IMG/VR virus record: IMGVR_UViG_3300048793_000048
Location: 1-42,617 of that record
Reading direction: 5' to 3' (one strand)
Source of the DNA: a virus
DNA length: 42,617 nt
The notes below the pieces were generated by a model. The model saw only the letters and a program-made list of their open reading frames with translations, was not told the origin of the DNA and made no database searches. Below, piece by piece: positions 3,054 to 40,754 of the stretch (its first letter is position 1; every line of letters starts with the position of its first letter). Made by a program: the position numbers and the translations under genes.

Positions 3054-3062
3054 GGGTTGAAC
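3054..3062 (-). promoter_or_regulatory. GTTCAACCC start-associated element (copy B)
   Basis: The element sits directly at the TAG stop of the lysin gene and ends 31 nt upstream of the peptidoglycan-binding gene start. No Shine-Dalgarno is visible between element and ATG. Confidence 0.55.
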
Positions 3063-3817
3063 TATCGAACCCCTAGATGGAGCCACGTCTCGGCCGCGAC
3101 GATGGGGTCACGGACGAGCCCCTCACGGACCTTGTAGCGGATGACATGGTTCCGCGTGAAGTGCCCATAGCCGCCGAGCGGGGCGAACAGCGGTGGCATG
3201 ATCCCCGCCGTGTTCAGCAAACGACGCAGGTAGACAACCCACTCATAGGGGCACGGCTGCCCGGGCTGGAGCGTCGGCGTCGGACCGTGAGGACGTGCCG
3301 CCGCGCCGAGGTGCCACGCGACCGAGTCCACGACGAGCGGCGGGTCCGGGATCGTGATCGCGGTGAGGTCGAAGCGCAGATAGGTCGGCGTGCGGCCGTC
3401 CTGGCTGACGTAGACGAGGCATGGGCAACCCTGCTGGCCGAACGAGCTCGTCAGCGGGCCTCGAGGATCACCGACGCCGACGATGACGGCGGTGTGCTGG
3501 TTCGAGAGCGGGCCGAAGGCGTCATAGACAACGGTGTCGCCGGGAATGACCTTGGCAACGGGGATCTCCGTGCCCGTCGCGGTGAGGCTCTGGGTGTTCC
3601 CATAGGGCAACGCCCATCCGAGTCCACATGGATCGAACTTGCATCCCGCGCACCAGTGGAGATAGCGGACGTACCACGAGCAGTCGCCCTTGAACGTCCA
3701 GACGACGGTGCGCGAGGTGAAAATCGGCAGCGGCCGGACCTCGTCGTAAGTGAATGTCGCAGCGTGGCTCGGCCCCTCTTGGGCGAGTCGTACCAGCTCG
3801 TTACGGGCATCAGTCAT
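3062..3817 (-). CDS. Endolysin, CHAP/NlpC-P60-type Cys-His peptidase
   Basis: 251 aa. The catalytic layout of a papain-like cell-wall peptidase is visible: KGDCSWYVRYLHW with Cys46 at the start of a helix, then IPGDTVVYDAFGPLSNQHTA with His108 followed by a hydrophobic strand (VIVGVGD). The spacing and the PGD-before-His motif are those of CHAP and NlpC/P60 domains in actinophage lysins. The region after about residue 175 (LQPGQPCPYEWVVYLRRLL) is Pro/aromatic-rich and may bind wall. A GGATCC-type purine site precedes the ATG. It starts the lysis cassette (lysin, peptidoglycan-binding protein, membrane protein). Bond specificity (amidase or endopeptidase) cannot be read from the sequence. Confidence 0.8.
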   Translation of the reverse strand: MTDARNELVRLAQEGPSHAATFTYDEVRPLPIFTSRTVVWTFKGDCSWYVRYLHWCAGCKFDPCGLGWALPYGNTQSLTATGTEIPVAKVIPGDTVVYDAFGPLSNQHTAVIVGVGDPRGPLTSSFGQQGCPCLVYVSQDGRTPTYLRFDLTAITIPDPPLVVDSVAWHLGAAARPHGPTPTLQPGQPCPYEWVVYLRRLLNTAGIMPPLFAPLGGYGHFTRNHVIRYKVREGLVRDPIVAAETWLHLGVR

Positions 3818-6718: not shown

Positions 6719-8142
6719 TCCGTGCTCCTCTCCCACACGCCGTCTTGCAGCGTCCAGAACCCGCGGCCGTCACGAGTGAGCCGCCAGTTGTTGCCGAACC
6801 GCCCGCCGCCCCCTCCCCCGAAATAGCCGAAGCCACCGAAGCCCGGGGCAGCGCCGCCGAAGCCAGCACCGGGGAATCCGAACGGGGAGGCGCCCGTGGC
6901 GCCTCCCGAGTAGCCCGAGAATGTGAAGTTGCTGAACGAGAAGTTGCCGTTGTAGATGGGCGAGGTCGGAGCGACCGCCGCGAGCGAGGGCGTGTCGCCG
7001 ATCGACGAGAGGTACTCGAGGGACGCGCCCATGGGGACCGCCGTCAGGGCCTCGGGAACGATGTCGAGGGGGATCGTGAGCTGCTGGACGATGAAGGTGC
7101 CGCGGATGCCTGTCGCCACGTTGTAGACGAAGATCAGGTCGTAGGGACGCAGGAAGGGCACGGGGACGATGTCTGCCGCGATGACGCGGTTGAGGCCGAG
7201 CACCTGTGGCAGCGCGATCCTGGCAGCATTACGACACTGGGCTGACGTCGTGGCGATGGAGTCCTGCAGCGGCGGCGCAGGGCGGAAGCCATAGGGACCG
7301 AGCGCGTAGGTGTCGCTGCGCGGGTTCATGTCGTAGGCATAGCCGGAGATCGTGGTGTTCCCGTTGAGCGACGTGCCGGTCACGATGATGCCGTTGTAGC
7401 CGGGATTGGACGACTTGCTCCGTGATATCTTCACGGCGAGGCTCTTGGCGCCATCCACGAGGGCCAGCACCGTCGCATGGCCCCCCTCGGAGGGCGAGGG
7501 ACGCGCGACGAACGCACCGACCGGGTCGAAGTAGCAGATGAACCCCGCGCTCGCGCAGAGCGAGACGATCTGCTGCCACGGGTCGTCGCCGGGGGAATAG
7601 ACCTGCAGCGCAACCGTGGCGTCGGTGCCCGAAATCTTGACCTGCGTGCGCTGGCTCAGCCATGGCGCCTGCTTGGTGAGGATGCCGCGCACCGCTTGCT
7701 CGACGGGGGTGCCGTTCGAAATGTTGTAGGTGTCGTCGAACAGGGCGCTGCTGATTCTGCCCGAGCGGTCGGTGCCCGTGATGGTGTAGATCGGGCCGGG
7801 GGCCGTGCTGTCGGTAGCGTCATCGACACTGTCGATCCAGAACACGCCAGCGGGCCAGAGGTAGGAGCCATTGTCAAGCACATAGCCGGTCATGATCTGC
7901 AGCTCGGTCCCGATCTTGAGGACCGCGTTGGTCCCCTCACCCGCAAGCTGACCGGAGTCGTCGATGCAGCTGAACGAGATCGTCCCCATGTTCTCGGCCG
8001 TGACGTCGTAGGTGATCGCCCCACCGGGGAGGATCTCCTTGAGCAGCGCATAGGGCAGCCCGTCATCGTTGAGGACGAGCACCTGTGTGACGTAGTTGAA
8101 CGACTTGGTCTGGATGGGCGGCGGAGCCGCCAGCTTGGTCAC
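6715..8142 (-). CDS. Minor tail protein, baseplate-hub-like
   Basis: 475 aa from a GTG overlapping the previous TGA (GTGA); upstream codons in this frame overlap the neighbour and look like shadow. Residues about 10-130 form a beta-rich domain (TQVLVLNDDGLPYALLKEIL). The central part contains YTITGTDRSGRISSALFDD, VEQAVRGILTKQAPW and PWQQIVSLCASAGFICYFDP. This follows the late-control/baseplate-hub pattern in which a small fold plus two helical segments join the tail tip. The C-terminus is low-complexity Gly/Phe-rich (FGFPGAGFGGAAPGFGG), an extension often seen in tail-tip proteins. It lies between the distal tail protein candidate and the spike. Confidence 0.7.
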   Translation of the reverse strand: MTKLAAPPPIQTKSFNYVTQVLVLNDDGLPYALLKEILPGGAITYDVTAENMGTISFSCIDDSGQLAGEGTNAVLKIGTELQIMTGYVLDNGSYLWPAGVFWIDSVDDATDSTAPGPIYTITGTDRSGRISSALFDDTYNISNGTPVEQAVRGILTKQAPWLSQRTQVKISGTDATVALQVYSPGDDPWQQIVSLCASAGFICYFDPVGAFVARPSPSEGGHATVLALVDGAKSLAVKISRSKSSNPGYNGIIVTGTSLNGNTTISGYAYDMNPRSDTYALGPYGFRPAPPLQDSIATTSAQCRNAARIALPQVLGLNRVIAADIVPVPFLRPYDLIFVYNVATGIRGTFIVQQLTIPLDIVPEALTAVPMGASLEYLSSIGDTPSLAAVAPTSPIYNGNFSFSNFTFSGYSGGATGASPFGFPGAGFGGAAPGFGGFGYFGGGGGGRFGNNWRLTRDGRGFWTLQDGVWERSTE

Positions 8143-9629
8143 GGCTTTGCGACGACATACATGGTCACAGTGACCGTGCTGTCGACCTCGTCTCGCCCGG
8201 TGATCGTGGCGGTGCGCACGCTGCGAAGGTTGGTCACGACACCCGTGTCGGGGCCGAAGCGGATGTACCACTGGCCCATCGGATAGGGACCCTGGAAGAG
8301 GAGCGTCTTGCGCGATGCGCGCAGCTGCTCATAGTCCTGGTAGTCCTCGTCGCTGAGGAACTGGAACGTGGCCGAGATGATGGGCAGCGAGGGCACGTCG
8401 GAGAGGACGACGGGATCGGGCCGGCCGACCGGGGAGAGCACGTTCTGTCGGTCCGTCGACTTGCGCTCGAAGGGACCATCGGTCAGGCTGAGTCGCATGT
8501 TCAGCGTGTGGTTGGATGGGTCCTTGAGCCACCAGTTGAGGGGGTTGGGATGAGCCTGTGAGCCTGTGACCTGCGCGCTTGCCTTGACCGCCGCGCCGAC
8601 ATTGCCCTGTACCTGCACCCGGTACATGCGGGTGAACCCGGGCGTGCCGTTGCGGTCCACTATCGTGGAGACCTGGCCTGCCGCGGTGATCGGCACCGGG
8701 GTGTCGTCGAGGACCCACCAGGTCGTCCCGACATCGTCGGAGAACGTGACGATGAACTGCGGTGTCGTCCACGCCGCGATGGACCCGTTGTGGTCGGTGA
8801 GCGTGAGCGTGACGTAGGGCTCGAGGAGCGAGGGGTTGGCCGAGTCTGATGGCGTGAGCACCATCGTGGGGTCGGTCGGCGCCGTATAGGTGACGGTGAA
8901 CCCGAGGTAGGCCCATGCCGAGACCTGTCCGCCGCTCTCGGAAATCTGGACGTAGGCGCGATAGCTCGTAGCCCCCGTGGGGAGCGGTGTCTCGACCTCG
9001 ACTGCGGTGGTCTGTCCTGCGAGCTGGGTGCTGTCCCAGACGTTCGGCCCGACACCGGGGGCGAACCCTCCCGCGCCGTACTGCGTCGAGTCGTAGATGA
9101 CGACCTGATAGCCGAGCTGCGCGGCTCCCGGCGCCGTGACAGGTGTCCACGAGACGATCGGGTAGGCGGTGCCGGCACTGACCGCTATCGCCGTGACGGT
9201 CGGCGCGCCCTGTCCGGTGACGCTGTTGTCGGGACTCCATGGAGAGATCCCATTGGTATCGAGCGAAGCGACCGACCATGCGAAGGTGGGGCCATTGCCC
9301 CATGCGCCTGCCGGGAAGGTGTAGCTCCATTGCGTTGTGCCCGGCGAGTCCGGATTGCCGACCGAGTCCGCATCGGATGATCCCGCGGTGTTCTTGTAGT
9401 AGGGGGTCGACTGCCAGATGCCGGTCGTCGCGTTCCAGTAGCGATAGGCCAGTGCGCCACCATATTTGCGACGCAATCCCCAGGCGAGTTGCGTCAGCCC
9501 GCCGTTGTAGTTCCATTCGAAGGTGGGCGGTGTGGAGAGATCCTCATAGAGCGCGTCAGTTGGCTGCACCAGCGATGGTGCAAGACCAGGGCCACCATGG
9601 GTTACCCCCTGGATCGCGATCGGCGACAT
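8139..9629 (-). CDS. Minor tail protein with fibronectin-like domains
   Basis: 496 aa. The N-terminal half has two repeated Ig/fibronectin-type patterns: PPTFEWNYNGGLTQLAWGLR, TQWSYTFPAGAWGNGPTFAW, YPIVSWTPVTAPGAAQLGY and SYRAYVQISESGGQVSAWAY. The C-terminal part (about 390-496) contains RKTLLFQGPYPMGQWYIRFG and VRTATITGRDEVDSTVTVTM, resembling the distal-tail-type domain that docks on the tail tube. No start-site ambiguity is seen; it abuts the 9630 stop. Probable tail-tip component lying between the tape measure and the hub. Confidence 0.7.
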   Translation of the reverse strand: MSPIAIQGVTHGGPGLAPSLVQPTDALYEDLSTPPTFEWNYNGGLTQLAWGLRRKYGGALAYRYWNATTGIWQSTPYYKNTAGSSDADSVGNPDSPGTTQWSYTFPAGAWGNGPTFAWSVASLDTNGISPWSPDNSVTGQGAPTVTAIAVSAGTAYPIVSWTPVTAPGAAQLGYQVVIYDSTQYGAGGFAPGVGPNVWDSTQLAGQTTAVEVETPLPTGATSYRAYVQISESGGQVSAWAYLGFTVTYTAPTDPTMVLTPSDSANPSLLEPYVTLTLTDHNGSIAAWTTPQFIVTFSDDVGTTWWVLDDTPVPITAAGQVSTIVDRNGTPGFTRMYRVQVQGNVGAAVKASAQVTGSQAHPNPLNWWLKDPSNHTLNMRLSLTDGPFERKSTDRQNVLSPVGRPDPVVLSDVPSLPIISATFQFLSDEDYQDYEQLRASRKTLLFQGPYPMGQWYIRFGPDTGVVTNLRSVRTATITGRDEVDSTVTVTMYVVAKP

Positions 9630-10286: not shown

Positions 10287-10633
10287 GGCTTCTCCTGTTC
10301 GGCGGCTTCAACCGCGTCGTGGAACTGTACGGCTCGAGGGTGCGCGAAACTATCGGCGGTTGCGCGCTGCTGGCGCGTGAGGTAGGCGAGGTGCTCGATC
10401 GTGCAGGAAGTGCCGCGCATGGAGGCAAGCTGGCGCTCGCGATGGAGCGACGCGGCTATCTCTGACTCCCACTGGAAGTCCTGCACCCCGTTGCGCCATG
10501 CTGCACGGGCCTCGGTGGTGAGCTCGCCGTTCCACCAGCCGAGAAGGCAGTGTGAGCACTTCCACGGCGGCGTTTGCTCGTCGGTGGCGAGGGGCACGAG
10601 CGGATCGCTGCAGTTCGGGCAGGTCGGGATCAT
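10283..10633 (-). CDS. Zinc-ribbon protein in tail operon
   Basis: 116 aa from an ATG that overlaps the tape-measure stop (ATGA). The N-terminus carries two Cys pairs, CPNC at residues 5-8 and CSHC at 26-29, forming a zinc ribbon (MIPTCPNCSDPL, then WKCSHCLLGW). The rest is helical and charged (LTTEARAAWRNGVQDFQWES). Position just after the tape measure is where small tail-assembly or tail-tip accessory proteins lie in siphoviruses. Function is not recognised beyond metal binding. Confidence 0.75.
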   Translation of the reverse strand: MIPTCPNCSDPLVPLATDEQTPPWKCSHCLLGWWNGELTTEARAAWRNGVQDFQWESEIAASLHRERQLASMRGTSCTIEHLAYLTRQQRATADSFAHPRAVQFHDAVEAAEQEKP

Positions 10634-13389
10634 GCTGGCCTCAGCGCCCCGCGATTCATGGCCGCGCGCAGGGCCGCGTTGACGCCACGCTGGGCTGCGG
10701 CAGTGAGCTCGGCTGCGGATGTCGACCCGCGTGCGTCGACGTGGATGTGGATCGTGGTCTGTCCAAGCGCATGCCCTGTCGTTCCTCCGGGTGCCGGGTT
10801 GGGCGGCCCGGGTCCACCCCCGCGGATGATCGGCGTGCCAGGAGGAACGGGCAGAGGGGGGCCGTAGTGGGGCATGTGCCCACCTCCCGTCAACCCCCCC
10901 TTGCTGTTCCCGATGATGCCAAGCGCACTCAGAATTGTGTGGATGATATTGATGAGGGGACCGAATGCCGTGACTGCCAGTCCCACCGCGGTTCTGACGC
11001 CACTCACCAATCCGTTCCACATGGTGCTCAGGACGCTCTTGATCGGGTTCACGATATTGGTCTTGATCCAGTTCCATACGGCAAGGATGACGCCCTTGAC
11101 GGCGCCCCAGGCGGTCGACCATGCAGTCGTGATAACGGTGACAACGGTATGCCACGCGCTCGCAATCGGGTGAAAGACGTTGTTGTCGATGGCCTGCCAC
11201 GCGTCAACCGCCCACTGCTTGACATCTCTCCACGCCGTCTTGGCGGCGCCGGAGATCGACGTCGAGACGGCGGACCAGGCTCGCATGATCGGATGGATCA
11301 CCTCGTTGTCGATGGCCTGCCATGCATCGACAGCCCAGTTCTTGATGTCCGTCCAGACCTGCTTCCAGTGTGTCGCGAGGGCATAGATCGCGACACCGAC
11401 CGCGATGATCCCCAAGATGATGAGTGTCACTGGGTTCGCCATGAAGAGGAGCCAAATGGCGGTGAGAATGACGAGGGCAGCCCCGAGGATGACGGTGAGC
11501 ACCTGCGGAGGGATCATCTTCATGATCCAGGCCACGGCCTTCACCACATAGGAAATGATGTCAAGGAGTATCTTGCCAATAGGCGCAAATGCCACGACTA
11601 GCTTGCCGACGATACCCACGACCGACCCGATGATGCTCCCGAGGTCATGGAGCACACCCACGACTAGATCGATCGTGCCCTTGCCGAGCTTGAAATGCGC
11701 GAAGAACTTGTCGACGCCAGTGGCCCACCGCTCGAACATGCTGGCGAGCACCTGCGCCATCGGAGCGAAGTCGGCAATGAAGCTGAGTCCCCCTTGTGCG
11801 AGTCGGCCAACGCCGGTGCCGACCTTGTCCATCAGGGGGCGAACGTTCTGCGAGAACACCGTGAAGTCGTGCCGGGTCTGCGGATCGCTCATCGCCGCGG
11901 CCGTGCCACGGACGAAGTCCTGCATGCCGCGGTTCGAGTTCATTAGGAAGCTATGGATGGCAGGCTGCTTGAGGAACTTGGTCCCCGCGTTGAATGCCTG
12001 CGTGAGGACTGGGTACCAGCCCTTCGTCATGCCGTGTGTCACCGCGGTCGCGGCGGCAGCAAGACGGCTGAGGGCGGCGGCGGCCTTGTCGACCGCGGGG
12101 TTGCCCGTGGCGTCCTTGTAGCGCGTGAGTGCCTGGGTCCATTGTGCGCTGCCTGGACCGAGTCCAGAGGCACGGAGGTTCGCGAGCGTGGACTGCAGGG
12201 TCGACGCGGCGTTGCGGGCCGAGTTGACCCTCTGAAAGGCCGTGTAGCCCCCGTAGGCGCCCGCGGCGAGGCCAGGGATCCCGATGCCAAGGCCCGAGAT
12301 GATGCCGCCTGCGGCGACCCCGGCGGCCATGCCGAGCGCGCTAACGATGCCGGCGGAGCCTATGCCGAGGGCGAGTGCGCCCGCCATCGGCATAGAGCCG
12401 AGGAGGGGGACCGCCGTCGAACTCCCCAGACCCGACCATAGGCTCGAGAGCCCCCCAGAGAGGGCCATCCCCGGGCGGGAGTCTTGGAGATAGCGGAGCA
12501 CACCCATCGGGGAGAAGCCCTTTTGGGGATCTCGGATGAGACCCTGATCGCTGAACATCTGACGCATTCCTGCGAATGATGGATCCCACCCACTGCCGGG
12601 ATAGGACGAGGACCCCGCGCGCTGGTTTCTGGTTCCCGAGCCATACAGGTCCCACGGCACGAGCGAAGTGCCAGGGCCGGAGCCCAGCATGCCCATCTCG
12701 CGGAAGAACGCATGCTCCGTTGGCGAGCCGAGCGCGTTCGGGCCGCCCTTGGTGAGGGCGAAGGCGCGCAGGATCCCGAGCTGGTCAGAGAAGCCCGCCA
12801 CGGACATCGCATCGGCGGCGCCGAGCATCCCCCGTATCGTTCCCCTGAGTTCCCCGCGACTCAAGCCCGCTATCGACGCCATCGACTGTCCGCCGATGCT
12901 CGTGCCGAGGACGGCCTGCTCGATCGCGGCGGTCCCTACGAGCCCCATCCCCACCGCGGCGCTGATGGCGCGCGAGATGATGTTCTGGCTCTCCGGGGTA
13001 GCGACGGTCTGACCGATCTCGCGGATGGTGCGCTGGACGGCCTGCACCGCTTGGCGGCCGGCCTGATCGAGGCCAGTGGTATCGCCCGTGAACCTGATGG
13101 GCACGGTCTTGGGCAGGCCGCTCTCGTCGGTGGTGACGCGCTTGACGGCCTGCTCGGCGGAGGATGCGTCGGCTCGGATCGGAACCATGATGCCCCGCTC
13201 CAAGAGCTTCTCACGGGCCTCTACCTCATCGGCGACCTCGTTGAACTTCGAGGCATCCGCGCCAATGTCGACGACGACCTCGCGCGCCTCGAGCTCGTCG
13301 ATGCGGCGGATCGCCTCGTCGAGTGCTCGGTCGAACGGTGTCTTGTCAACCTCGAGCTGTGCCTTGATGGAGCCGGCGTCAAAGCCCAT
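10630..13389 (-). CDS. Tape measure protein
   Basis: 919 aa from the ATG at 13389, which overlaps the chaperone stop (TGATG); an alternative GTG lies one codon upstream. The N-terminus is helical with SIKAQLEVDKTPFDRALDEA and AEQAVKRV, typical of tape measures. A hydrophobic cluster at about residues 620-670 (LTVILGAALVILTAIWLLFM, LIILGIIAVGVAIYAL) would form membrane-penetrating helices. After it come two near-identical helical repeats, NWAVDAWQAIDNEV and QWAVDAWQAIDNNV. The protein is the longest helical gene between the chaperones and tail-tip genes, as expected. At about 1.5 angstrom per residue the tail would be near 140 nm. Confidence 0.92.
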   Translation of the reverse strand: MGFDAGSIKAQLEVDKTPFDRALDEAIRRIDELEAREVVVDIGADASKFNEVADEVEAREKLLERGIMVPIRADASSAEQAVKRVTTDESGLPKTVPIRFTGDTTGLDQAGRQAVQAVQRTIREIGQTVATPESQNIISRAISAAVGMGLVGTAAIEQAVLGTSIGGQSMASIAGLSRGELRGTIRGMLGAADAMSVAGFSDQLGILRAFALTKGGPNALGSPTEHAFFREMGMLGSGPGTSLVPWDLYGSGTRNQRAGSSSYPGSGWDPSFAGMRQMFSDQGLIRDPQKGFSPMGVLRYLQDSRPGMALSGGLSSLWSGLGSSTAVPLLGSMPMAGALALGIGSAGIVSALGMAAGVAAGGIISGLGIGIPGLAAGAYGGYTAFQRVNSARNAASTLQSTLANLRASGLGPGSAQWTQALTRYKDATGNPAVDKAAAALSRLAAAATAVTHGMTKGWYPVLTQAFNAGTKFLKQPAIHSFLMNSNRGMQDFVRGTAAAMSDPQTRHDFTVFSQNVRPLMDKVGTGVGRLAQGGLSFIADFAPMAQVLASMFERWATGVDKFFAHFKLGKGTIDLVVGVLHDLGSIIGSVVGIVGKLVVAFAPIGKILLDIISYVVKAVAWIMKMIPPQVLTVILGAALVILTAIWLLFMANPVTLIILGIIAVGVAIYALATHWKQVWTDIKNWAVDAWQAIDNEVIHPIMRAWSAVSTSISGAAKTAWRDVKQWAVDAWQAIDNNVFHPIASAWHTVVTVITTAWSTAWGAVKGVILAVWNWIKTNIVNPIKSVLSTMWNGLVSGVRTAVGLAVTAFGPLINIIHTILSALGIIGNSKGGLTGGGHMPHYGPPLPVPPGTPIIRGGGPGPPNPAPGGTTGHALGQTTIHIHVDARGSTSAAELTAAAQRGVNAALRAAMNRGALRPA

Positions 13390-14002
13390 CACTCACCGCC
13401 AAGGGTCGTCATGGTGATGCCAATGCCGGAGAGGGAATCGACGCCATCGTCCTGTCCCCCGGGTTGCGGTGGTGCGCCGTCCTCGGTGAACTCCTCGAGG
13501 AAGCCCTCGAGGTAGGTCTCCTGCCAATGCCAGGGCAGGGCGTCCCACTCAGCGGGGGACATGGAGAGGTGGCGCCGAGCGAGGTAGTAGATGGACCGTT
13601 GGTAGGGACCGCCCGTGAGACGGTCATAACGCGCTCCTACGCTTTTGGGCCCCGAAACTCTCCCTGTAGCCAGCGCGAGAACGAGCCGAAGTACCGAACG
13701 GGCAGTGCTGCGAGTTCATCGAAGGATGGAGTGTCCTGGCAGAACGCTGCGGTCGCGCGCTGGGCGGACTCGAGCAACGCGTGGGTGTCGATGACAGGGT
13801 CAGTCCCGGCCGCCTCCGCTGCCTTCGTCGCATCGATCGTCTCCTTCTCGAGACGTCCGAGGGTCTCGACGAACGTCTGCAGGGCGTCGCCGCTGGGTTC
13901 GGGGATGATCCCCTTGCCGGTGCAGAACGTCCCATCCGCCTTCGCGATGGCCGTGAAGTCGTACTCCAGAGCAGCGACATCGCTGCCGGTGAATCCACTC
14001 AT
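13389..14002 (-). CDS. Tail assembly chaperone GT fusion (-1 frameshift product)
   Basis: The short product (13637-14002) ends in GPKA-stop. The zero frame there reads GGC CCA AAA GCG TAG and holds a perfect slippery heptamer C CCA AAA at 13649-13643. A -1 slip continues in an 84-codon open frame to the TGA at 13389-13391: SVGARYDRLTGGPYQRSIYY, then HLSMSPAEWDALPWHWQETY. The RRHLSMSPAEWDALPWHW segment is the expected T-domain pattern. The fusion is about 204 aa. The downstream frame has no good start of its own and overlaps the tape-measure start. This matches the conserved G/GT arrangement of long-tailed phages; the frameshift itself is inferred. Confidence 0.85.
13637..14002 (-). CDS. Tail assembly chaperone G
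   Basis: 121 aa. Its ATG overlaps the major tail protein stop (ATGA). Sequence is helical and acidic: MSGFTGSDVAALEYDFTAIA, FVETLGRLEKETIDATKAAE and FDELAALPVRYFGSFSRWL. Position between major tail protein and tape measure, small size and the slippery sequence five codons before the stop identify it as the G-type chaperone that coats the tape measure during tail assembly. Most ribosomes are expected to terminate here and give this short form. Confidence 0.85.
   Translation of the reverse strand: MSGFTGSDVAALEYDFTAIAKADGTFCTGKGIIPEPSGDALQTFVETLGRLEKETIDATKAAEAAGTDPVIDTHALLESAQRATAAFCQDTPSFDELAALPVRYFGSFSRWLQGEFRGPKA
13643..13649 (-). other. Programmed -1 frameshift slippery heptamer CCCAAAA
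   Basis: On the minus strand C CCA AAA is positioned correctly in the zero frame (X XXY YYZ), two codons before the G stop codon. The plus strand reads TTTTGGG here. Both tRNAs can re-pair after a one-base backward slip. Confidence 0.8.
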
Positions 14003-26184: not shown

Positions 26185-26376
26185 CTACTGCACGATGACG
26201 CGGCGCTCGGCGTTGAGGCCAAGCGCGCAGTCCGCGATGAGATCCCAGACGACCTCGAGGGTGCCGCGGCGCCAGCCTTCGGTGCGCAGCTCGGTCGCGA
26301 TGCCATCAGGGGTGAACTCGCCGGGGTGCTCGTGCACGAACCGCATCACGGTCATGTGATGCTGGTCGCGGACCAT
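26185..26376 (-). CDS. Small winged-helix-like hypothetical protein
   Basis: 63 aa. The pattern MRFVHEHPGEFTPDGIATEL, then WRRGTLEVVWDLIADCALG and LNAERRVIV, suggests a small winged helix: helix, helix, then two strands. ATG codons at 26376 and 26355 are alternative starts; neither has a strong ribosome binding site. It follows the first GH16-like gene closely. DNA binding is possible but unproven. Confidence 0.6.
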   Translation of the reverse strand: MVRDQHHMTVMRFVHEHPGEFTPDGIATELRTEGWRRGTLEVVWDLIADCALGLNAERRVIVQ

Positions 26377-26380
26377 GGGC

Positions 26381-27151
26381 TCAGGCCGGGATGTATTCGG
26401 CCCACCAGTCGAAGTCGAAGTCCAGTCCGCCAGCAGGCAGCCCGAGGTTCGCTCGGAGCGCCTCGACCTGGATGTCGCAGTGGTGCGACGTCGCCGGGAT
26501 TGCGTGTGAGAGCGTCACCGAGCTGGGCGATCCGCCATCCGGGGTCCATGTTGTCTTCGCGAATGTGGGCGTGACCTGCATCTCCATGACGCCCCAGAGG
26601 TCCGTGCGGATCCCTCCAAGATGCGCGGAGCCGACCAGTGACGGCCATGTGTTGCCGATGTGCAGGTTGATGTCCAGCGACGTCGCGGTGCCGTCGTCCT
26701 CGGCTGAGTCGACCTCGCCTTCCTGGGGCTCCTTGCCGTCAGTCGCCCAGAAGATCCCATCGTTGCGCTTGAGGCCCGCGAAGGCGGGGCGGCGGCAGTG
26801 GACACGGACGATGGTCGGCGGCAGATAGCCGACCTTGCGCCCGAAGCCGAAGGTGCGGACGTTGGCGCCCTCGGACTGGGCGTGACCGTGGAGGCCGTTC
26901 GCGTCGCAGCGCAGCATCGCTTGGCCCCAGACTGTCCACGGCGACGAACTCGCCTGCCCTGCCCACACGAAGAAGTCCGACTGGAACGCCGCGAGCGTCG
27001 GGTAGTCGGCAAACCGCTTCTGCCATGCCACCTTGTAGCCCGCTGGTGGCGCGGGGAAACCGGTTGCGGGCACCGAGAGCTTGAAGCTCCTTGTGCCGTC
27101 AGCGTTGATCGTCTCGAGGTAGGGCAGCCCCTCGAGCATCTGCGCGCCCAT
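26381..27151 (-). CDS. GH16-like jelly-roll glycoside hydrolase or lectin
   Basis: 256 aa from an ATG one base inside the stop of the phosphoesterase (TGATG). The sequence follows family GH16: FQSDFFVWAGQASSSPWTVW, APANTVRTF-like strands (EGANVRTFGFGRKVGYLPPT), the catalytic-type motif GEVDSAED (E146-x-D148-xx-E151, the ExDxxE signature), then DLWGVMEMQVTPTFAKTTWT and CDIQVEALRANLG. The chain ends DFDWWAEYIPA. No signal peptide is visible, so export would need holin-mediated lysis or virion carriage. The three acidic residues suggest it is active. Substrate unknown (GH16 enzymes cut beta-1,3/1,4-glucans, agarose, carrageenan). Confidence 0.65.
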   Translation of the reverse strand: MGAQMLEGLPYLETINADGTRSFKLSVPATGFPAPPAGYKVAWQKRFADYPTLAAFQSDFFVWAGQASSSPWTVWGQAMLRCDANGLHGHAQSEGANVRTFGFGRKVGYLPPTIVRVHCRRPAFAGLKRNDGIFWATDGKEPQEGEVDSAEDDGTATSLDINLHIGNTWPSLVGSAHLGGIRTDLWGVMEMQVTPTFAKTTWTPDGGSPSSVTLSHAIPATSHHCDIQVEALRANLGLPAGGLDFDFDWWAEYIPA

Positions 27152-28077
27152 CAGAGGTTGAACGATGGGATGAGGGATGGCGCGGAGGCCGCTTGGCCGA
27201 GCCTGGACAGCCCGAGGAGATCCTCGGACGCGCGCAGCAGCGAGTAGTGGTTGAACGACCCCGCAGCGCGGGTGCCGGGTTTGACCGAGGGCGCGACGAC
27301 GACGAGCTCGACGTGGCACGACTGGTCGCCCACGTTCGCGGCGCAGTTCTCGCCGGCCGATGCCGGCTCGCCCTCGTCGGTCGTTATCAGGATCGCCGTG
27401 TCGTGCGACTGGTAGACGGGCGTGGCGATGAGCTTCGGCACGAGCGCCTTGAGCCATGCGTCCCCGGTCCCGACCGAGCAGTCGTGCATGTCGTTGCACA
27501 GGTTCGGCGTCACGAACGCGAACGATGGCGCGGTGGCCTCCTTGCCGAAGTCCGGCACGAGGCTCGTCAGTGACACGTCGCGCGTCGAGCAGGAGTCCTT
27601 GACCTTGTAGTACACGTAGGGGTTGTGCTTGGGCGCGTACTCGCCAGAGCCGTTCCAGTCACAGTTGCTCGGCATCGACTCCTGATACGACTTCGCGAAC
27701 GTCTGAGCAAAAATGCTCCCAGCAGTCGTCCCGCACGTTGTAGGTGAACAATCCCCCACAAATGGGGCAAGTGATGCCATTGGTAGGCCACTCGTCATCG
27801 CGAGATAGTTCGGCAGGCTGTTGTGCGTCGTCGAGTGGTAGTTGGTCGCGAGTCCGCATTGCGCCGCCAGTCCGTCGAGGTAGGGCATGTGCCCGACCGT
27901 TGCCGAGTACGAGTGATTCTCTTCCATGATGACGATGACGTGCTTGATTGTCGGCGCGGTCGTCAGCACGCCGCACGGCGACGCGCTTGCGCGCGCGTGG
28001 TTCGTGGCTGCCGCACCCGGCACCGCGGTGCCGAGAAAGAGAGTGGACAGGGCCAGGATCTGCGTGAGTCGTCTCAT
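27151..28077 (-). CDS. Secreted phosphoesterase, PF04185-like
   Basis: 308 aa from ATG 28077, with GTG 28086 as an alternative. A signal peptide is clear: MRRLTQILALSTLFLGTAVP followed by AAATNHARA. The mature part follows the acid phosphatase/phospholipase C family: IKHVIVIMEENHSYSATVGH (metal-binding EEN at about 52-54), THNSLPNYLAMTSG, PSFAFVTPNLCNDMHDCS, then ILITTDEGE (metal-binding DE) and ELVVVAPSVKPGTRAAGSFN. Several Cys are spaced for disulfides. It is a hydrolase of phosphate esters, normally secreted by soil bacteria. Carriage by a phage suggests an auxiliary gene, for phosphate capture or envelope lipid attack. Substrate cannot be told. Confidence 0.8.
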   Translation of the reverse strand: MRRLTQILALSTLFLGTAVPGAAATNHARASASPCGVLTTAPTIKHVIVIMEENHSYSATVGHMPYLDGLAAQCGLATNYHSTTHNSLPNYLAMTSGLPMASLAPFVGDCSPTTCGTTAGSIFAQTFAKSYQESMPSNCDWNGSGEYAPKHNPYVYYKVKDSCSTRDVSLTSLVPDFGKEATAPSFAFVTPNLCNDMHDCSVGTGDAWLKALVPKLIATPVYQSHDTAILITTDEGEPASAGENCAANVGDQSCHVELVVVAPSVKPGTRAAGSFNHYSLLRASEDLLGLSRLGQAASAPSLIPSFNL

Positions 28078-28125
28078 GTCGGCCACGATATCAGCAGCAA
28101 TCGAATGAAGGTGAGACTCAGGCGA

Positions 28126-29121
28126 TCATGGCGACAAGGGACGCCCATACGAGTCCACGTTGGACGGGTTCCCGAGCAGGAAAGGTATCCCAGGCGGGGT
28201 GATGCGAGGCTTCACAAACACCTCGATGCCGGCGATGGTGCGCTGGGACGTCTTGCCGTGATCCCCGGTGAGTCCCGCGTTGTACATCTGTGTCTGACAG
28301 ATGATTGGACGAGGCACGTCACAGAGGCGGTCCCAGATGCCGCTGTCGGTTCCTGCCGCATTCGGGATCTTGAGTGATCCGTCCATCCTGCCGTCCGTGA
28401 ACGAGGTCACGGTCTGGTTGTCCAGCTCGACCTCGTAGCAGTGCCTTCCGAACGTCTGGTACGTCCTGCGCTGCATGGGTCCGACGATGGTGGCGGTATA
28501 GTTCGGATTGCCGGGGAGGTGATCCTGCCCGTTCGTCGTGCCGTCGTGCATGCGGATGTAACTCTGCTGCAACACCCCCGCCTTGACGCCGCATTCGTCG
28601 AAGTCGATCTCGACGTCAGACCAGTTGCGGGGCATCATCTGGCTGACCTTGTTCAGCCCGTCAATATTCAAATCCAAGAGGCGCTCGTACACGCGGACCC
28701 GACAAGGCGCGAAAAACTGCGCCTTGGTGCCGAAACCCCCGCATCGCCACCCCGAGCTCGCAGAGCCACTCCCGTCAGGGTTCGTCGGCACCCTGTTCTG
28801 TGTGTTGGGGTAGGCACCCCAATCCGTGAAGAACGTGATGCCGGCAGAACTGTAATGCATATTCGCCGCGGTCCATCCGCAATAGGTCGTGCCACTGGGC
28901 ACCCCATTCGCCCAGCTGTTCAATGCTGAGGGCAGCGATGTGATGCCGGTGGTGAAGTCCAACCGCAACGCACGTTTCCACCCGAATGGCTTAGGAAGCC
29001 AGAATGCGCCACCCGCGAGCGCGTCACCCACCATGGGCGCGTCAGTGGTGTCTGCCATATCGGTAGACCCCGAGAACAGATCTCCGCCGAGGTAGGACTG
29101 TGCGCCATCACCGTAAGGCAT
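28126..29121 (-). CDS. GH16-like jelly-roll glycoside hydrolase or lectin
   Basis: 331 aa. The GH16 hallmark is clear: PRNWSDVEIDFDECGVKAGV, with E171-I-D173-F-D-E176, an exact ExDxxE. Around it are FGTKAQFFAPCRVRVYERLL before and RRTYQTFGRHCYEVELDNQT after, the strands that in GH16 form the cleft and carry the FHxYxxxW-type element. The chain begins MPYGDGAQSYLGGDLFSGST without a signal peptide. It lies 48 nt upstream of the phosphoesterase. A GTTCAACCC element lies 32 nt before the ATG. Similar in architecture to the 26381 product but not a close copy. Confidence 0.7.
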   Translation of the reverse strand: MPYGDGAQSYLGGDLFSGSTDMADTTDAPMVGDALAGGAFWLPKPFGWKRALRLDFTTGITSLPSALNSWANGVPSGTTYCGWTAANMHYSSAGITFFTDWGAYPNTQNRVPTNPDGSGSASSGWRCGGFGTKAQFFAPCRVRVYERLLDLNIDGLNKVSQMMPRNWSDVEIDFDECGVKAGVLQQSYIRMHDGTTNGQDHLPGNPNYTATIVGPMQRRTYQTFGRHCYEVELDNQTVTSFTDGRMDGSLKIPNAAGTDSGIWDRLCDVPRPIICQTQMYNAGLTGDHGKTSQRTIAGIEVFVKPRITPPGIPFLLGNPSNVDSYGRPLSP

Positions 29122-31289: not shown

Positions 31290-31910
31290 ATGACGAACGG
31301 AACAGACACACGCAATGCGCTCGACCAGTACGCCCGGGACGGCGCCGAGCTGGGCGCATGGGTCGGATGCCTCTCGTGCTACAACGATGGCGCCCTGGTC
31401 GGCGAGTGGATTGATGCCACGATGGCAGACGATGCGGCCAGCGATCCAGAGTGGCAGGCCGCAACCCACGAGCATCACGGCCGCACGGCCGAATTCCTTC
31501 GGGATGGCTGCGAAGAATGGTGGGTTATGGATCATGAGGGGTTCGGTGGTTTGCTGGGCGAGTGCGGCACCGCGTCGATTCAGGCTCGCGCCGAACTTCT
31601 GACCGATCTGTCCGACGACGACGAGCGGGCCGCGTTCGTTGCCTACTGCGCGGCCACTGGAGCCGAGTTCAACGCAGACGGGCTCGAGAGTCACCGAGAC
31701 AACTACTGCGGCAAGTGGGACTCGTTCAAGGACTACGCCCAGGAGATGGCCGGCGACTATAGGCCGTTCGGGGCCGACTCAGAAACGGCCCGCGTGCTCG
31801 AGTCGTGGCCCTACAACTGCATTGACTGGGACCGGGCGGCACGCGAGCTTGAGTACGACTACACGGTCGTAGAGACGTCCAACTACGACGTGTGGGTCTG
31901 GCACGCATGA
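31290..31910 (+). CDS. ardA: ArdA antirestriction protein
   Basis: 206 aa from the ATG after AAAGGTAAG; upstream in-frame codons lie in the leader repeat. Family pattern: GAWVGCLSCYNDGALVGEWI, EEWWVMDHEGFGGLLGECGT, then DDERAAFVAYCAATGAEFNA, DNYCGKWDSFKDYAQEMAGD and NCIDWDRAARELEYDYTVVE ending in a Trp/Tyr strand. ArdA is an acidic DNA mimic that inhibits type I restriction-modification enzymes. Early placement fits protection of incoming DNA. The stop overlaps the next ATG (ATGA). Confidence 0.88.
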   Translation: MTNGTDTRNALDQYARDGAELGAWVGCLSCYNDGALVGEWIDATMADDAASDPEWQAATHEHHGRTAEFLRDGCEEWWVMDHEGFGGLLGECGTASIQARAELLTDLSDDDERAAFVAYCAATGAEFNADGLESHRDNYCGKWDSFKDYAQEMAGDYRPFGADSETARVLESWPYNCIDWDRAARELEYDYTVVETSNYDVWVWHA

Positions 31911-32155
31911 CGCGCCGCGCGTGGACAATCCTCGGTGCAGGATGCGCAGCGCTCGCACTCGCGCTCGCACTGGGCCCGAGCGACGTGCCGGCACACAGTG
32001 AGTCTTGGCACGATGGCTACACCTATGGCAGGTCTATCCTGCACTCACACGACCCGCTAGGTAGTGTGCGGTGCCTTCCATCTCAGATATATCTGCCCAG
32101 GGGCGATAACGCGGCACAGTACATCATCGGATGCAATGCGGGAATGGTGCCATGA
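31907..32155 (+). CDS. Small exported protein, tandem paralogue 1
   Basis: 82 aa. A signal peptide is visible: MTRRAWTILGAGCAALALAL followed by the cleavage region SDVPAHS. The mature part (about 50 aa) contains SWHDGYTYGRS, one Cys (SVRCLPSQI) and ends YIIGCNAGMVP. The first 31 residues are identical to those of the next gene, with only synonymous DNA changes. The shared GY...GCxAG frame with two Cys suggests a small secreted fold. Function unknown. Confidence 0.75.
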   Translation: MTRRAWTILGAGCAALALALALGPSDVPAHSESWHDGYTYGRSILHSHDPLGSVRCLPSQIYLPRGDNAAQYIIGCNAGMVP

Positions 32156-32430
32156 CGCGCCGCGCGTGGACAATCCTCGGCGCGGGATGCGCAGCGCTCG
32201 CGCTCGCACTCGCACTGGGCCCGAGCGACGTGCCGGCACACTCGCGAGCATGGCAGCTCGGCTACCAGTCGGCGAGCCTGCCATTCGTGCAGAATGCGAC
32301 GCCAGGACAGGCCCGCTTCGAGCTGTGCAATGGAAACGTATTCACCTATCCAGTACAGCCCGTAAGCATCCAATTCGACAACCAATGGGTGCTCGGATGC
32401 GTTGCCGGGCTTTCACACTTTCACTCTTGA
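32152..32430 (+). CDS. Small exported protein, tandem paralogue 2
   Basis: 92 aa. Same signal peptide as the preceding gene (MTRRAWTILGAGCAALALAL), then a different mature part: RAWQLGYQSASLPFVQN, FELCNGNVFTYPVQPVSIQF and NQWVLGCVAGLSHFHS. The conserved WxxGY, Cys and GCxAG positions show common descent. Its ATG overlaps the first gene's stop (ATGA). Secreted or surface-bound during infection; possible superinfection or host-surface role. Confidence 0.75.
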   Translation: MTRRAWTILGAGCAALALALALGPSDVPAHSRAWQLGYQSASLPFVQNATPGQARFELCNGNVFTYPVQPVSIQFDNQWVLGCVAGLSHFHS

Positions 32431-32434
32431 CGCC

Positions 32435-32449
32435 GTGGCACATTGCCAC
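32435..32449 (+). other. Short hairpin upstream of clamp-like gene
   Basis: GTGGCA-CAT-TGCCAC, a 6-bp stem, lies 56 nt upstream of the ATG at 32506, after the preceding stop. A weak terminator or regulatory hairpin. Confidence 0.3.
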
Positions 32450-32505
32450 TACGCTTAGACCTAATCCCATTCACCAACCACCAAACAACAAGGAGACATA
32501 CACCC

Positions 32506-33090
32506 ATGAAACTCTCACCGAAGGACATGCGGGCCATCCGTGCAGTCGCGACTGTCGCCAGTCCCGACAAGGCTCGACCGATTCTGTGCGGCGTGCGCAT
32601 CCAACCACGCGACGGAGGGTCGACCATCGTCGCGACCGATTCGTACCGCCTGGCATGGATGGACATTGACGAGCCGACCGACATGGAGATCATCGTCGGA
32701 CCCGATCAGGTCAAGGCAATGAAAGCCATCTCGGGACCAAAGGCGGAATTGCCCGCCACCATCGAGATGGTGCCGGACGTGAGCGCGCTCACCTGGCTCG
32801 GCGGCTCGTGCGAGGATGATGGTTTCTACGACGGCATGTTCCCCGACTGGCGCCAGCTCGTTCCATCGAAGTTCCCCGACAGTCTGACGCAGTCGGACGT
32901 CAACGGGGTCGCGGCGTTCAATCCGTTCTACCTCGCCGGACTCGCAACGGCCGCGAAGGTACTACTGATCGACAATACGACGAGCGTGCGAGTGTTCTTT
33001 ACCGACGCGAGAAGGCCCGCCTATTTCCGCATCGTGAGCCACGAGGCGGGAACATTCAATTACCTACTCATGCCAGTGCGCGTCCAATAG
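32506..33090 (+). CDS. Miniature sliding clamp (DnaN)-like protein
   Basis: 194 aa, against about 370 for bacterial beta clamps. AAGGAG precedes the ATG. Recognisable segments: DKARPILCGVRIQPRDGGST followed by IVATDSYRLAW (the clamp ATDxxRLA motif), a short domain ending MFPDWRQLVPSKFP (compare FPDYRRVLP), then FNPFYLAGLATAAKVLL and YLLMPVRVQ, the C-terminal end of domain III. Thus one domain II and the end of domain III seem fused, with domain I missing. It may form a smaller ring, or act on host polymerase or clamp. The function is inferred from these motifs. Confidence 0.7.
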   Translation: MKLSPKDMRAIRAVATVASPDKARPILCGVRIQPRDGGSTIVATDSYRLAWMDIDEPTDMEIIVGPDQVKAMKAISGPKAELPATIEMVPDVSALTWLGGSCEDDGFYDGMFPDWRQLVPSKFPDSLTQSDVNGVAAFNPFYLAGLATAAKVLLIDNTTSVRVFFTDARRPAYFRIVSHEAGTFNYLLMPVRVQ

Positions 33091-33550: not shown

Positions 33551-33726
33551 CAACCCGCCCCACGATCCGCATTCGAGCCACGACCTATCGACGCGAGGCG
33601 GGTTGGCTGATCTTCGGCGTCAATGCTCGCGGGCAACGGGTCTCGATCTTCACGCCATCGACGTTCGATGAAGCCAGCCGCATTGCCACCGCTGAGCGTG
33701 AGGGCGTCGAATGGACGTTCGCATGA
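33547..33726 (+). CDS. Small hypothetical protein
   Basis: 59 aa: MTTRPTIRIRATTYRREAGW, then LIFGVNARGQRVSIFTPSTF and DEASRIATAEREGVEWTFA. This is a compact strand-strand-helix pattern. The first 14 bases of its coding sequence (ATGACAACCCGCCC) recur at the start of the next gene. Overlaps the next gene (ATGA). Function unknown. Confidence 0.65.
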   Translation: MTTRPTIRIRATTYRREAGWLIFGVNARGQRVSIFTPSTFDEASRIATAEREGVEWTFA

Positions 33727-34670
33727 CAACCCGCCCAACAACCCTCACCGCGATGGTCGGTCAGACAAAGGCAAGAGAGCAACTAAGGATCACCATCGCC
33801 GGCGCAGAAATACGCGGCACCGATCCGCCGCACGTGCTGCTGACCGGGCCCGCGGGCTACGGCAAGACAACCCTCGCCGGCATCGTCGCGCATACCAGGG
33901 ACGGCAAGCTGCACACGCTGAGCGGGCCGTCGACCACGAAGCCGAAGGACATCGTCGGCGTGCTTATGACGCTCGAGGATGGCGACGTGGTGTTCATCGA
34001 CGAGGTGCATAGGGTCGGAAAGACCGTCCAAGAGACGCTCTATGAAGCAATGGAGGATCGTAAGATATCCATGACGCTCGGAAGCGGGAATGGGGCAAAG
34101 GCGGCCACGTTCGACCTCGCGCATTTCGTACTCATAGGCGCGACGACCGACGCCGGCAAGCTGACCGGCCCGTTCCGCGACCGATTCGGGTTGAAGGTCA
34201 ACCTCGAGCCGTACAGCGTGTACGAGCTGCAGGCAATCGTGCTGCGCCACTGGACGCTCGACGTGGCGCAAGGATGGAACGGCGAGCGGGCCGCGCTCGA
34301 GGTGGCGCGACGGTCCAAGGGCGTGCCACGAGTCGCGCTGCACCTCGCTGACCGCGTGCTCGACTACCAGGCGGTCACGGGGGACGACGGCAGCGTGACG
34401 CCGGGACTCGTGACCGAGGCGCTGACCGCGTTCGGCATAGGCCCCGAGGGGCTCAACGAGGTGGACTTGCGCTACCTGTCAACGCTCGTCAACACATTTG
34501 GGTGCAGGTGGACCGGGATCGACGCACTCGCGTCCACCATGGACGTCGCGAAGGACACACTGGTCGCCGAGCACGAGGGCAATTTGATACGGTCGGGCTA
34601 TCTCATTCGATCAGGACAGGGCCGACAGGTGACGCCAAAGGGTATCGCACTGGTGAGGGGACGTGCATGA
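33723..34670 (+). CDS. ruvB: RuvB-like Holliday-junction AAA+ ATPase
   Basis: 315 aa. Walker A GPAGYGKTTLA at residues 42-52 and Walker B VVFIDEVHRV with D93/E94. Then KTVQETLYEAMEDRKISMTL (RuvB EExLYPAMEDxx), IGATTDAGKL (sensor 1) and PFRDRFGLKV, where the Arg acts as the finger. The C-terminus has the winged-helix TLVAEHEGNLIRSGYLIRSG and GRQVTPKGIAL. RuvB drives branch migration with RuvA, which is not encoded here. It could use host RuvA, or help the clamp-like protein as a loader, since RuvB and clamp loaders share the AAA+ class. Starts by ATGA overlap. Confidence 0.88.
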   Translation: MTTRPTTLTAMVGQTKAREQLRITIAGAEIRGTDPPHVLLTGPAGYGKTTLAGIVAHTRDGKLHTLSGPSTTKPKDIVGVLMTLEDGDVVFIDEVHRVGKTVQETLYEAMEDRKISMTLGSGNGAKAATFDLAHFVLIGATTDAGKLTGPFRDRFGLKVNLEPYSVYELQAIVLRHWTLDVAQGWNGERAALEVARRSKGVPRVALHLADRVLDYQAVTGDDGSVTPGLVTEALTAFGIGPEGLNEVDLRYLSTLVNTFGCRWTGIDALASTMDVAKDTLVAEHEGNLIRSGYLIRSGQGRQVTPKGIALVRGRA

Positions 34671-39919: not shown

Positions 39920-40317
39920 GCCCTGCAATCTACAACCCGCAAGCCCCCGCCGTCGACCCTTTCTCTGCGCCGAGCAGAGCGTCGTGCGTTAGTGGCCCAT
40001 TGGTCGCGAGGGGCGCGCGCCCCTCGCGCTACCAGTCCACGGATGAGGTTTTCGGAGCGCGTCGTCGGCTCTAAATGGGTCGGGCAGGCGCAGGAAAGAA
40101 CGCGGCATAGATGGTCGAGATCCATGCTGTCGGGAATCGGACCGACGAGTGCCTCATAGACGACTCGGTGAACGCGCCTGACAGCGCCGGGAACTCGGAT
40201 CGCTCCATACCCCTTCTGAGTGGCGCCTTCCCATAGCCAGCAGCCGGTGTTCGGCTCGAAGGCGATCCGCGCCATCGCTCGGTCGATCGCTGGTCGCGAC
40301 TTCGGTCCGGGTTTCAC
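39916..40317 (-). CDS. HNH endonuclease
   Basis: 133 aa from a GTG overlapping the next stop (GTGA); earlier in-frame sequence overlaps the secreted-protein gene. EPNTGCWLWEGATQKGYGAI, VHRVVYEALVGPIPDSMDLD, then DLDHLCRVLSCACPTHLEPT and TRSENLIRG give the HNH core (H69, H81) and zinc Cys (C71, C76/C78) of the phage free-standing HNH family. Possibly a homing-type endonuclease or a DNA-processing nuclease coupled to the methyltransferase. Confidence 0.82.
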   Translation of the reverse strand: MKPGPKSRPAIDRAMARIAFEPNTGCWLWEGATQKGYGAIRVPGAVRRVHRVVYEALVGPIPDSMDLDHLCRVLSCACPTHLEPTTRSENLIRGLVARGARAPRDQWATNARRSARRRERVDGGGLRVVDCRA

Positions 40318-40754
40318 AACAGGCAAGCCCCCGCCGTACTCCAAGCCTGCCAACCGTAGTTGTGCAGGATCGATAGAGCGAGAGACGACTGAGCCTTCAT
40401 AGACATAGGACCGTTGAACGGCACGAAGCCAAAAACATTCCTCGGTGCCTGCTGCATCCCCTCTTCGTAGAGGCGGATGCAGCGCCAGCTCGCCGTGTCC
40501 GTCGTCACCCAGTCGCGCCACGACCCGACGCCGCCGAGCAGTGCGTTGATGTGCTCGATCTCGATCGCTTGCGCGCGCAGCCTTGCGGCCTGCACCATCC
40601 TGGCGTGGTGGACGTGGGCGGCATGGACGCGCGCGGCGTGGTGGTGCCGGAGTTGCGCCTGCGTCGGGCGGTGGGCCGGCGATGCGGCGCTGGCGCCGAG
40701 GGTGAGTGTGAGTGACAGGACTGCTATGCAGCAGCCAATGATGGACTTGCGCAT
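40314..40754 (-). CDS. Secreted lysozyme/Rpf-like protein
   Basis: 146 aa. A signal peptide (MRKSIIGCCIAVLSLTLTLG-ASAAS) is followed by a His-rich helical stretch (QAQLRHHHAARVHAAHVHHA). Residues about 88-146 resemble resuscitation-promoting-factor/transglycosylase folds: TASWRCIRLYEEGMQQAPRN (possible catalytic Glu at 97/98), VFGFVPFNGPMSMKAQSSLA and ILHNYGWQAWSTAGACLL. The final QxGWxAWSTxxxC pattern is shared by actinobacterial lysozyme-like domains. A secreted muralytic enzyme is plausible, perhaps for DNA injection or release. Identity is moderate. Confidence 0.6.
   Translation of the reverse strand: MRKSIIGCCIAVLSLTLTLGASAASPAHRPTQAQLRHHHAARVHAAHVHHARMVQAARLRAQAIEIEHINALLGGVGSWRDWVTTDTASWRCIRLYEEGMQQAPRNVFGFVPFNGPMSMKAQSSLALSILHNYGWQAWSTAGACLL

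Follow-up and report, generated by a model that had tools for sequence, protein, structure and literature searches.

Phage depolymerases, GH16 glycoside hydrolases of soil viruses (PMC6460857, PMC10127799) and phage phosphatases are each already known separately. GH16 genes have been annotated in soil virus contigs, one of them on a 70-kb near-complete genome, and in the available portions of these reports they stand without an accompanying phosphoesterase (PMC6460857, PMC10127799). Soil phages also carry phosphorus-acquisition genes such as phoD, ppa and pstS (PMC10987575), and the kinds named in the accessible text of that report, among them phoD, ugpQ, phnP and phnW, do not include a PF04185 acid phosphatase. 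Phage phosphoesterases directed against polymers of the host surface are likewise known, as exemplified by the baseplate glycerophosphodiesterase of Lactobacillus phage Ld17, a virion phosphoesterase depolymerase that acts on wall teichoic acid (cited in PMC6116005). We found no account of a phage that pairs PF04185 with GH16 in the literature searched.

Here we analyse a single IMG/VR record, IMGVR_UViG_3300048793_000048, of 42,617 bases (hereafter the window), in which three adjacent minus-strand genes at 26381-29121 combine a PF04185 phosphoesterase with one GH16-like and one possibly GH16-like protein. Like the soil phages with phosphorus-acquisition genes, this phage, which is described as soil-type, encodes a phosphatase-like enzyme predicted to be secreted. 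It is distinct from the soil-virome GH16 cases in that a phosphoesterase accompanies the GH16-like gene, and from Ld17 in that the enzyme appears to be a Sec-type PF04185 protein rather than a glycerophosphodiesterase built into the baseplate.

Genomic setting of the locus

Terminase, portal, capsid and tail genes identify the window as the contig of a tailed phage. The minus strand encodes the small and large terminase, portal, major head protein, tape measure (10630-13392), tail (including a tail protein at 6715-8271) and head-tail connector proteins, and the plus strand carries RusA-like resolvase, antirestriction and RuvB genes. A prim-pol helicase-primase and a DNA methylase occupy the right part of the window. 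The three genes of interest are bordered on one side by a small block of plus-strand genes and on the other by the gene for the small terminase. With terminase, portal, capsid and tail genes on the left flank and RusA-like, antirestriction and prim-pol genes on the right flank of the same contig, the phosphoesterase gene is phage-encoded and not host contamination. A 63-aa ORF without a family match (26185..26376, minus strand) begins a few bases past the gene at 26381-27151 and is probably on the same transcript. No promoter-like sites were found in the sequence scan of the window, terminator-like sites occur at about chance level, and a terminase-based search for relatives returned distant phages only.

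A PF04185 phosphoesterase with a predicted leader

The middle gene (27151..28077, minus strand, ATG start) encodes a 308-aa PF04185 phosphoesterase of the acid phosphatase / phospholipase C superfamily. Its product matches the Pfam model with an E-value of 8.9e-21 (74.9 bits, where the cut-off is 23), and all 23 residues that are invariant in an alignment of 25 relatives are present, in agreement with the sequence-only reading, which had proposed a 308-aa phosphoesterase bearing the family motifs. The kept residues include E53 and N54, S87, H151, PNLCNDMHDC at 191-200, G205 and D206, D234 and E235, and H277, among others. The block corresponding to H-x-S-x-P-N-Y reads THNSLPNY, and the EN, PNLCNDMHD, DE and C-terminal H elements are all in place. 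A profile made from the 25 relatives matches, over the whole domain, the solved Francisella AcpA (PDB 2d1g) and bacterial and plant phospholipases C; among NCBIfam models, the Burkholderia acid phosphatase and PC-phospholipase C entries show only a remote likeness, far below their cut-offs. By comparison with the matched solved chains, which span 467 to 744 aa, the window protein is shorter and phage-borne, and it belongs to a soil Actinomycetota/Chloroflexota subgroup that has no close solved structure.

At its N-terminus, a Sec-like leader, MRRLTQILALSTLFLGTAVPGAAA (28006..28077, minus strand), without a lipobox cysteine, is predicted by inspection and rule-based hydropathy. This segment ranks within the four most hydrophobic N-termini among the 49 window proteins, which upholds, as a prediction, the signal peptide proposed earlier, and the enzyme is probably exported by Sec. 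The ORF is intact, and GC content varies across its codon positions as expected for a coding sequence. The metallophosphoesterase Gp48 of mycobacteriophage A10ZJ24 (PMC12287305) was considered as a model and rejected, because it belongs to another family and targets host DNA intracellularly, whereas the window protein has a leader.

One GH16-like neighbour and one borderline neighbour

The downstream gene (26381..27151, minus strand) encodes a 256-aa GH16-like protein without a signal peptide; a longer 372-aa ORF at 26381-27499 was discarded as having its start placed too early. The start codon ATG of this gene and the stop codon TGA of the phosphoesterase gene have one base (A) in common, and this overlap suggests that the two are translationally coupled. 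The protein contains EVDSAE (26699..26716, minus strand), a candidate GH16 catalytic Glu-Asp-Glu at residues 146, 148 and 151, which aligns to the invariant E, D and E columns of 12 GH16 proteins.

GH16 profiles were built from PF00722-positive proteins of genomes with phosphoesterase relatives. The downstream protein scores 35.0 bits with a divergent actinobacterial GH16 profile (E-value 5.5e-13 for a single comparison; best of 1000 shuffles, 6.9 bits), a top score that could be slightly inflated since the divergent subset was picked by eye from the PF00722 hits. Four of the profiles score it between 28.6 and 35.0 bits and the fifth at 20.7 bits, against shuffle maxima of 5.6 to 8.5 bits; the profile from all 21 GH16 domains gives 33.4 bits, and the hhalign probability is 94.5%. 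The match extends from EVDSAE to DWWAEY in the C-terminal strand, so that, as in laminarinases and beta-glucanases, the E-x-D-x-x-E block and the DW..EY strand are aligned, and the E, D and E residues, the histidine after them and the tryptophan before them are kept. In contrast to GH16 members, the protein has G and Q in place of H and the second W in the WHTxGVxW strand, lacks a signal peptide and is missed by PF00722 in Pfam, and PHROGs and NCBIfam likewise give no GH16 match. Because PF00722 gives no hit, we name the protein GH16-like and do not file it as a GH16 member; the profile and hhalign matches together with the kept E-D-E show that it is homologous to GH16 and retains the catalytic signature. 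The AlphaFold model made without an alignment is of low confidence (pLDDT 31.8).

The upstream gene (28126..29121, minus strand), separated from the phosphoesterase gene by 48 bases, encodes a 331-aa protein, also without a signal peptide, with EIDFDE at residues 171-176 (28594..28611, minus strand). It is collinear with GH16 across approximately 214 columns. With the five GH16 profiles it scores 15.4, 10.4, 8.4, 4.1 and 5.3 bits (shuffle maxima 6.8, 8.7, 10.8, 11.9 and 7.7, respectively), and with a profile that includes the downstream protein 11.3 bits (shuffle maximum 8.9). It thus exceeds all shuffles in three of six profiles, one of which contains the downstream protein, and falls within the shuffle range in the others. 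The hhalign probability is 4.8% (P 0.008), no GH16 match is given by Pfam, PHROGs or NCBIfam, and the alignment-free AlphaFold model is again of low confidence (pLDDT 29). A GH16-like identity of this product is possible, not established.

The sequence-only reading rested on exact ExDxxE signatures in both neighbours. Both are indeed present, and the GH16 likeness that was drawn from them is borne out for the downstream protein and stays borderline for the upstream one. By itself the motif proves nothing, because its count in the window proteome (12,285 residues) is near chance, with four occurrences against 1.4 expected, one of them in the acidic end of the terminase. Close relatives of the two proteins were found neither in IMG/VR, nor in phage records (tblastn), nor in 396 same-phylum genomes; two matches to the upstream protein lay in frames with stop codons and were treated as chance, and IMG/VR scans using GH16 alignments yielded nothing confirmable. 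The wider description of all three products as host-type extracellular hydrolases fits the phosphoesterase by family, leader and tree. Since both GH16-like proteins lack export signals, only the phosphoesterase may be called secreted.

The missing leaders also speak for a reading in which the GH16-like proteins are virion parts and the phosphoesterase is separate secreted cargo. The virion proteins would then have a concanavalin-like fold and, as tail spike or decoration, bind or trim glycans of the host. Virion-bound depolymerases are common (PMC6116005), and both genes lie on the strand that continues to the terminase and structural genes. However, the genes are located upstream of the terminase gene and away from the tail genes, and the overlap of the downstream gene with the phosphoesterase gene suggests joint use. 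We regard this arrangement as improbable; a virion role for the leaderless proteins would be compatible with either polymer degradation or phosphate scavenging.

Origin of the phosphoesterase

The nearest relative of the phage phosphoesterase is an Acidimicrobiaceae protein with approximately 50% identity. In our tree the two are sisters (support 100/97), and the pair is nested with Thermoleophilia and other Actinomycetota in a clade with support 99/93. One scan confirmed 188 bacterial or archaeal relatives, and among the matches listed (80 of 188) most are from Actinomycetota and Chloroflexota, many of them soil-derived. No phage family was found by Pfam among the neighbours of the Acidimicrobiaceae gene. 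The simplest reading is that the gene was acquired from an actinobacterial host lineage, with the direction of transfer inferred.

Such a captured gene could be passenger DNA with no role in infection, and no closely related phage that keeps the phosphoesterase was found. Against this stand the intact ORF, the coding-type codon-position GC and the retention of all invariant residues at only approximately 50% identity to the nearest relative; because it is intact and keeps these residues at such distance, the enzyme has probably been retained while its sequence diverged over a long time. We judge a passenger origin very unlikely.

PF04185 in other phages

The phosphoesterase has no tblastn match among 50,697 phage records and no significant PHROG. 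At the sensitivity used, PF04185 relatives occur in just two further IMG/VR contigs, both tailed phages, in which the domain sits within larger proteins; the scans detect only loci with short exact or degenerate peptides in common, so this count is a lower bound. By these searches the PF04185 family is rare in phages. The sequence-only reading had proposed looking for the same three-gene set in soil viruses and in bacteria, and the exact set was found nowhere else.

The first contig, IMGVR_UViG_3300036800_000065 (L186), was found by profile scan and also encodes portal, head maturation protease, major head protein and glycosyltransferases. A single 2258-aa ORF (L186:2790-9566) with an N-terminal hydrophobic segment contains a GH16-like domain at residues approximately 427-621, which scores 86 bits with a GH16 profile built in this analysis but stays below the PF00722 cut-off (E-value 0.002). 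It further contains two PHB-depolymerase-like esterase domains, fn3, PF04185 at approximately 1733-1975 (E-value 9.8e-14 for the excised domain) and, at the C-terminus, the polysaccharide lyase PF14099 (E-value 4.4e-11). This multidomain protein is remarkable in its own right. Its PF04185 domain has drifted at two motifs, which read HFSADNY and PNKTNDDHD, so it may have altered activity. In the second contig (L002), which has a terminase, a 1011-aa ORF carries PF04185 toward its N-terminal side, followed by a further approximately 680 residues, and lies shortly downstream of a GH25/amidase endolysin and a holin. The middle of the ORF reads like a beta-helix, with only a sub-threshold DUF5123 hit in support. 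The PF04185 domains of L186 and L002 are 39% and 29% identical to the window phosphoesterase, respectively, and both phages are distant.

GH16 and PF04185 thus occur together in two of the three phages found here to carry PF04185, compared with 0/80 in each of two control sets, of which one comprises bacterial phosphoesterase loci (742 kb) and the other terminase-selected viral loci (676 kb); the control loci are not habitat-matched to the carriers, and three phages are few. Since no GH16 profile match lies beside the 80 bacterial phosphoesterases, the pairing is not simply an inherited bacterial gene order.

Polymer degradation or phosphate scavenging

The sequence-only reading had left the choice between a phosphate or carbon cassette and degradation of the host envelope or capsule. 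Because L186 fuses PF04185 with GH16-like, esterase and polysaccharide lyase domains, which implies joint action on a polymer, and because the two genes are coupled in the window, we favour degradation of envelope or extracellular polymers and disfavour the phosphate or carbon cassette. The L002 fusion, which lies near an endolysin and a holin, points the same way. As a phosphate-scavenging auxiliary metabolic gene, the phosphoesterase would supply phage DNA synthesis with phosphate cleaved from phospholipids or organic esters, and its GH16-like neighbours would be unrelated. Its family includes acid phosphatases (AcpA, 2d1g), its predicted secretion is that of host phosphatases, and soil phages carry phoD and ppa genes whose encoded enzymes were shown to be active (PMC10987575). 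This precedent, however, concerns other enzyme families, not PF04185. Moreover, the phosphoesterase gene is coupled to a GH16-like gene, its L186 counterpart is fused with glycanase, esterase and lyase domains, PHO-box sites number 4 in the window against 3.9 expected, with 0 upstream of the gene, and the gene lies on the leftward strand that runs into the late genes. On this balance we consider scavenging unlikely.

For polymer degradation, in which the secreted phosphoesterase and the GH16-like glycanase would break down host surface or matrix polymers, we put the chances at about even. The phage would have obtained the phosphoesterase from an actinobacterium and would express it, translationally coupled to the glycanase, from the leftward strand that leads to the terminase and virion genes. 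The phosphoesterase would leave the cell through Sec. Without signal peptides, the GH16-like protein or proteins could act outside alongside it only if freed at lysis or virion-borne. On the host surface or in the extracellular matrix, both enzymes would then break down polymers that bear phosphate or resemble beta-glucans (a teichoic-type polymer, capsule or biofilm), and this breakdown may help virions escape debris and find new cells. The sequences themselves show that the phosphoesterase belongs to its family, that the downstream gene is homologous to GH16, that stop and start codons overlap, that the enzyme has actinobacterial kin and that the pairing recurs in another phage; we infer export, catalytic activity, substrate, timing and benefit. 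Several points count against polymer degradation: in the window phage the lysis genes lie elsewhere than next to the cassette, GH16 identity of the upstream protein is uncertain, L186 and L002 are distant phages whose phosphoesterase domains reach only the 39% and 29% identity given above, and other members of the PF04185 family, the acid phosphatases, release free phosphate. A lysis-cassette reading was rejected, as the holin-like and endolysin-like genes sit at 2299-2856 and 3062-3817.

More broadly, we raise the tentative and rather doubtful proposal that soil actinobacterial phages employ a recurring extracellular set of PF04185 and divergent GH16, in some cases with esterases and lyases, encoded either by adjacent genes or within a single giant secreted protein. 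Such a set would form a depolymerase class apart from tail spikes and endolysins and would target phosphate-containing surface or biofilm polymers. The pairing, common to two unrelated phages, gives a hint of the substrate that can be tested, and it suggests that envelope- or biofilm-degrading enzymes are in some phages secreted and not carried. PF04185 genes of this kind would easily be filed as phosphate-cycling in virome surveys and may instead be depolymerases.

Other features of the window

On the plus strand, 33711-34670 encodes a RuvB branch-migration helicase that is complete (313 bits with NF000868, which exceeds the cut-off), with intact Walker A (GPAGYGKTT) and Walker B (VFIDE) motifs; RuvB relatives occur in 46 of the 50,697 phage records, all below 60% identity. 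A RusA-like Holliday junction resolvase (32443-33090, plus strand) lies shortly ahead of it, which suggests a phage branch-migration/resolution pair. Adjacent small proteins at 31892-32155 and 32131-32430 (plus strand), each with a hydrophobic leader, are 50% identical to each other and represent a secreted or membrane protein that has been duplicated in tandem. The strongest signal-peptide-like N-terminus of the window belongs to a 146-aa protein without a family (40314-40754, minus strand).

At the left end, 3062-3817 (minus strand) likely encodes a cysteine-type endolysin, recognized by eye (DCSWYVRYLHW ... HTAVIVG), with a weak C-terminal PHROG endolysin match and no confirmation by Pfam, and the holin-like gene adjoins it. 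The gene at 3839-6736 (minus strand) encodes a 965-aa tail-region protein without an informative family match, a probable tail fibre or spike.
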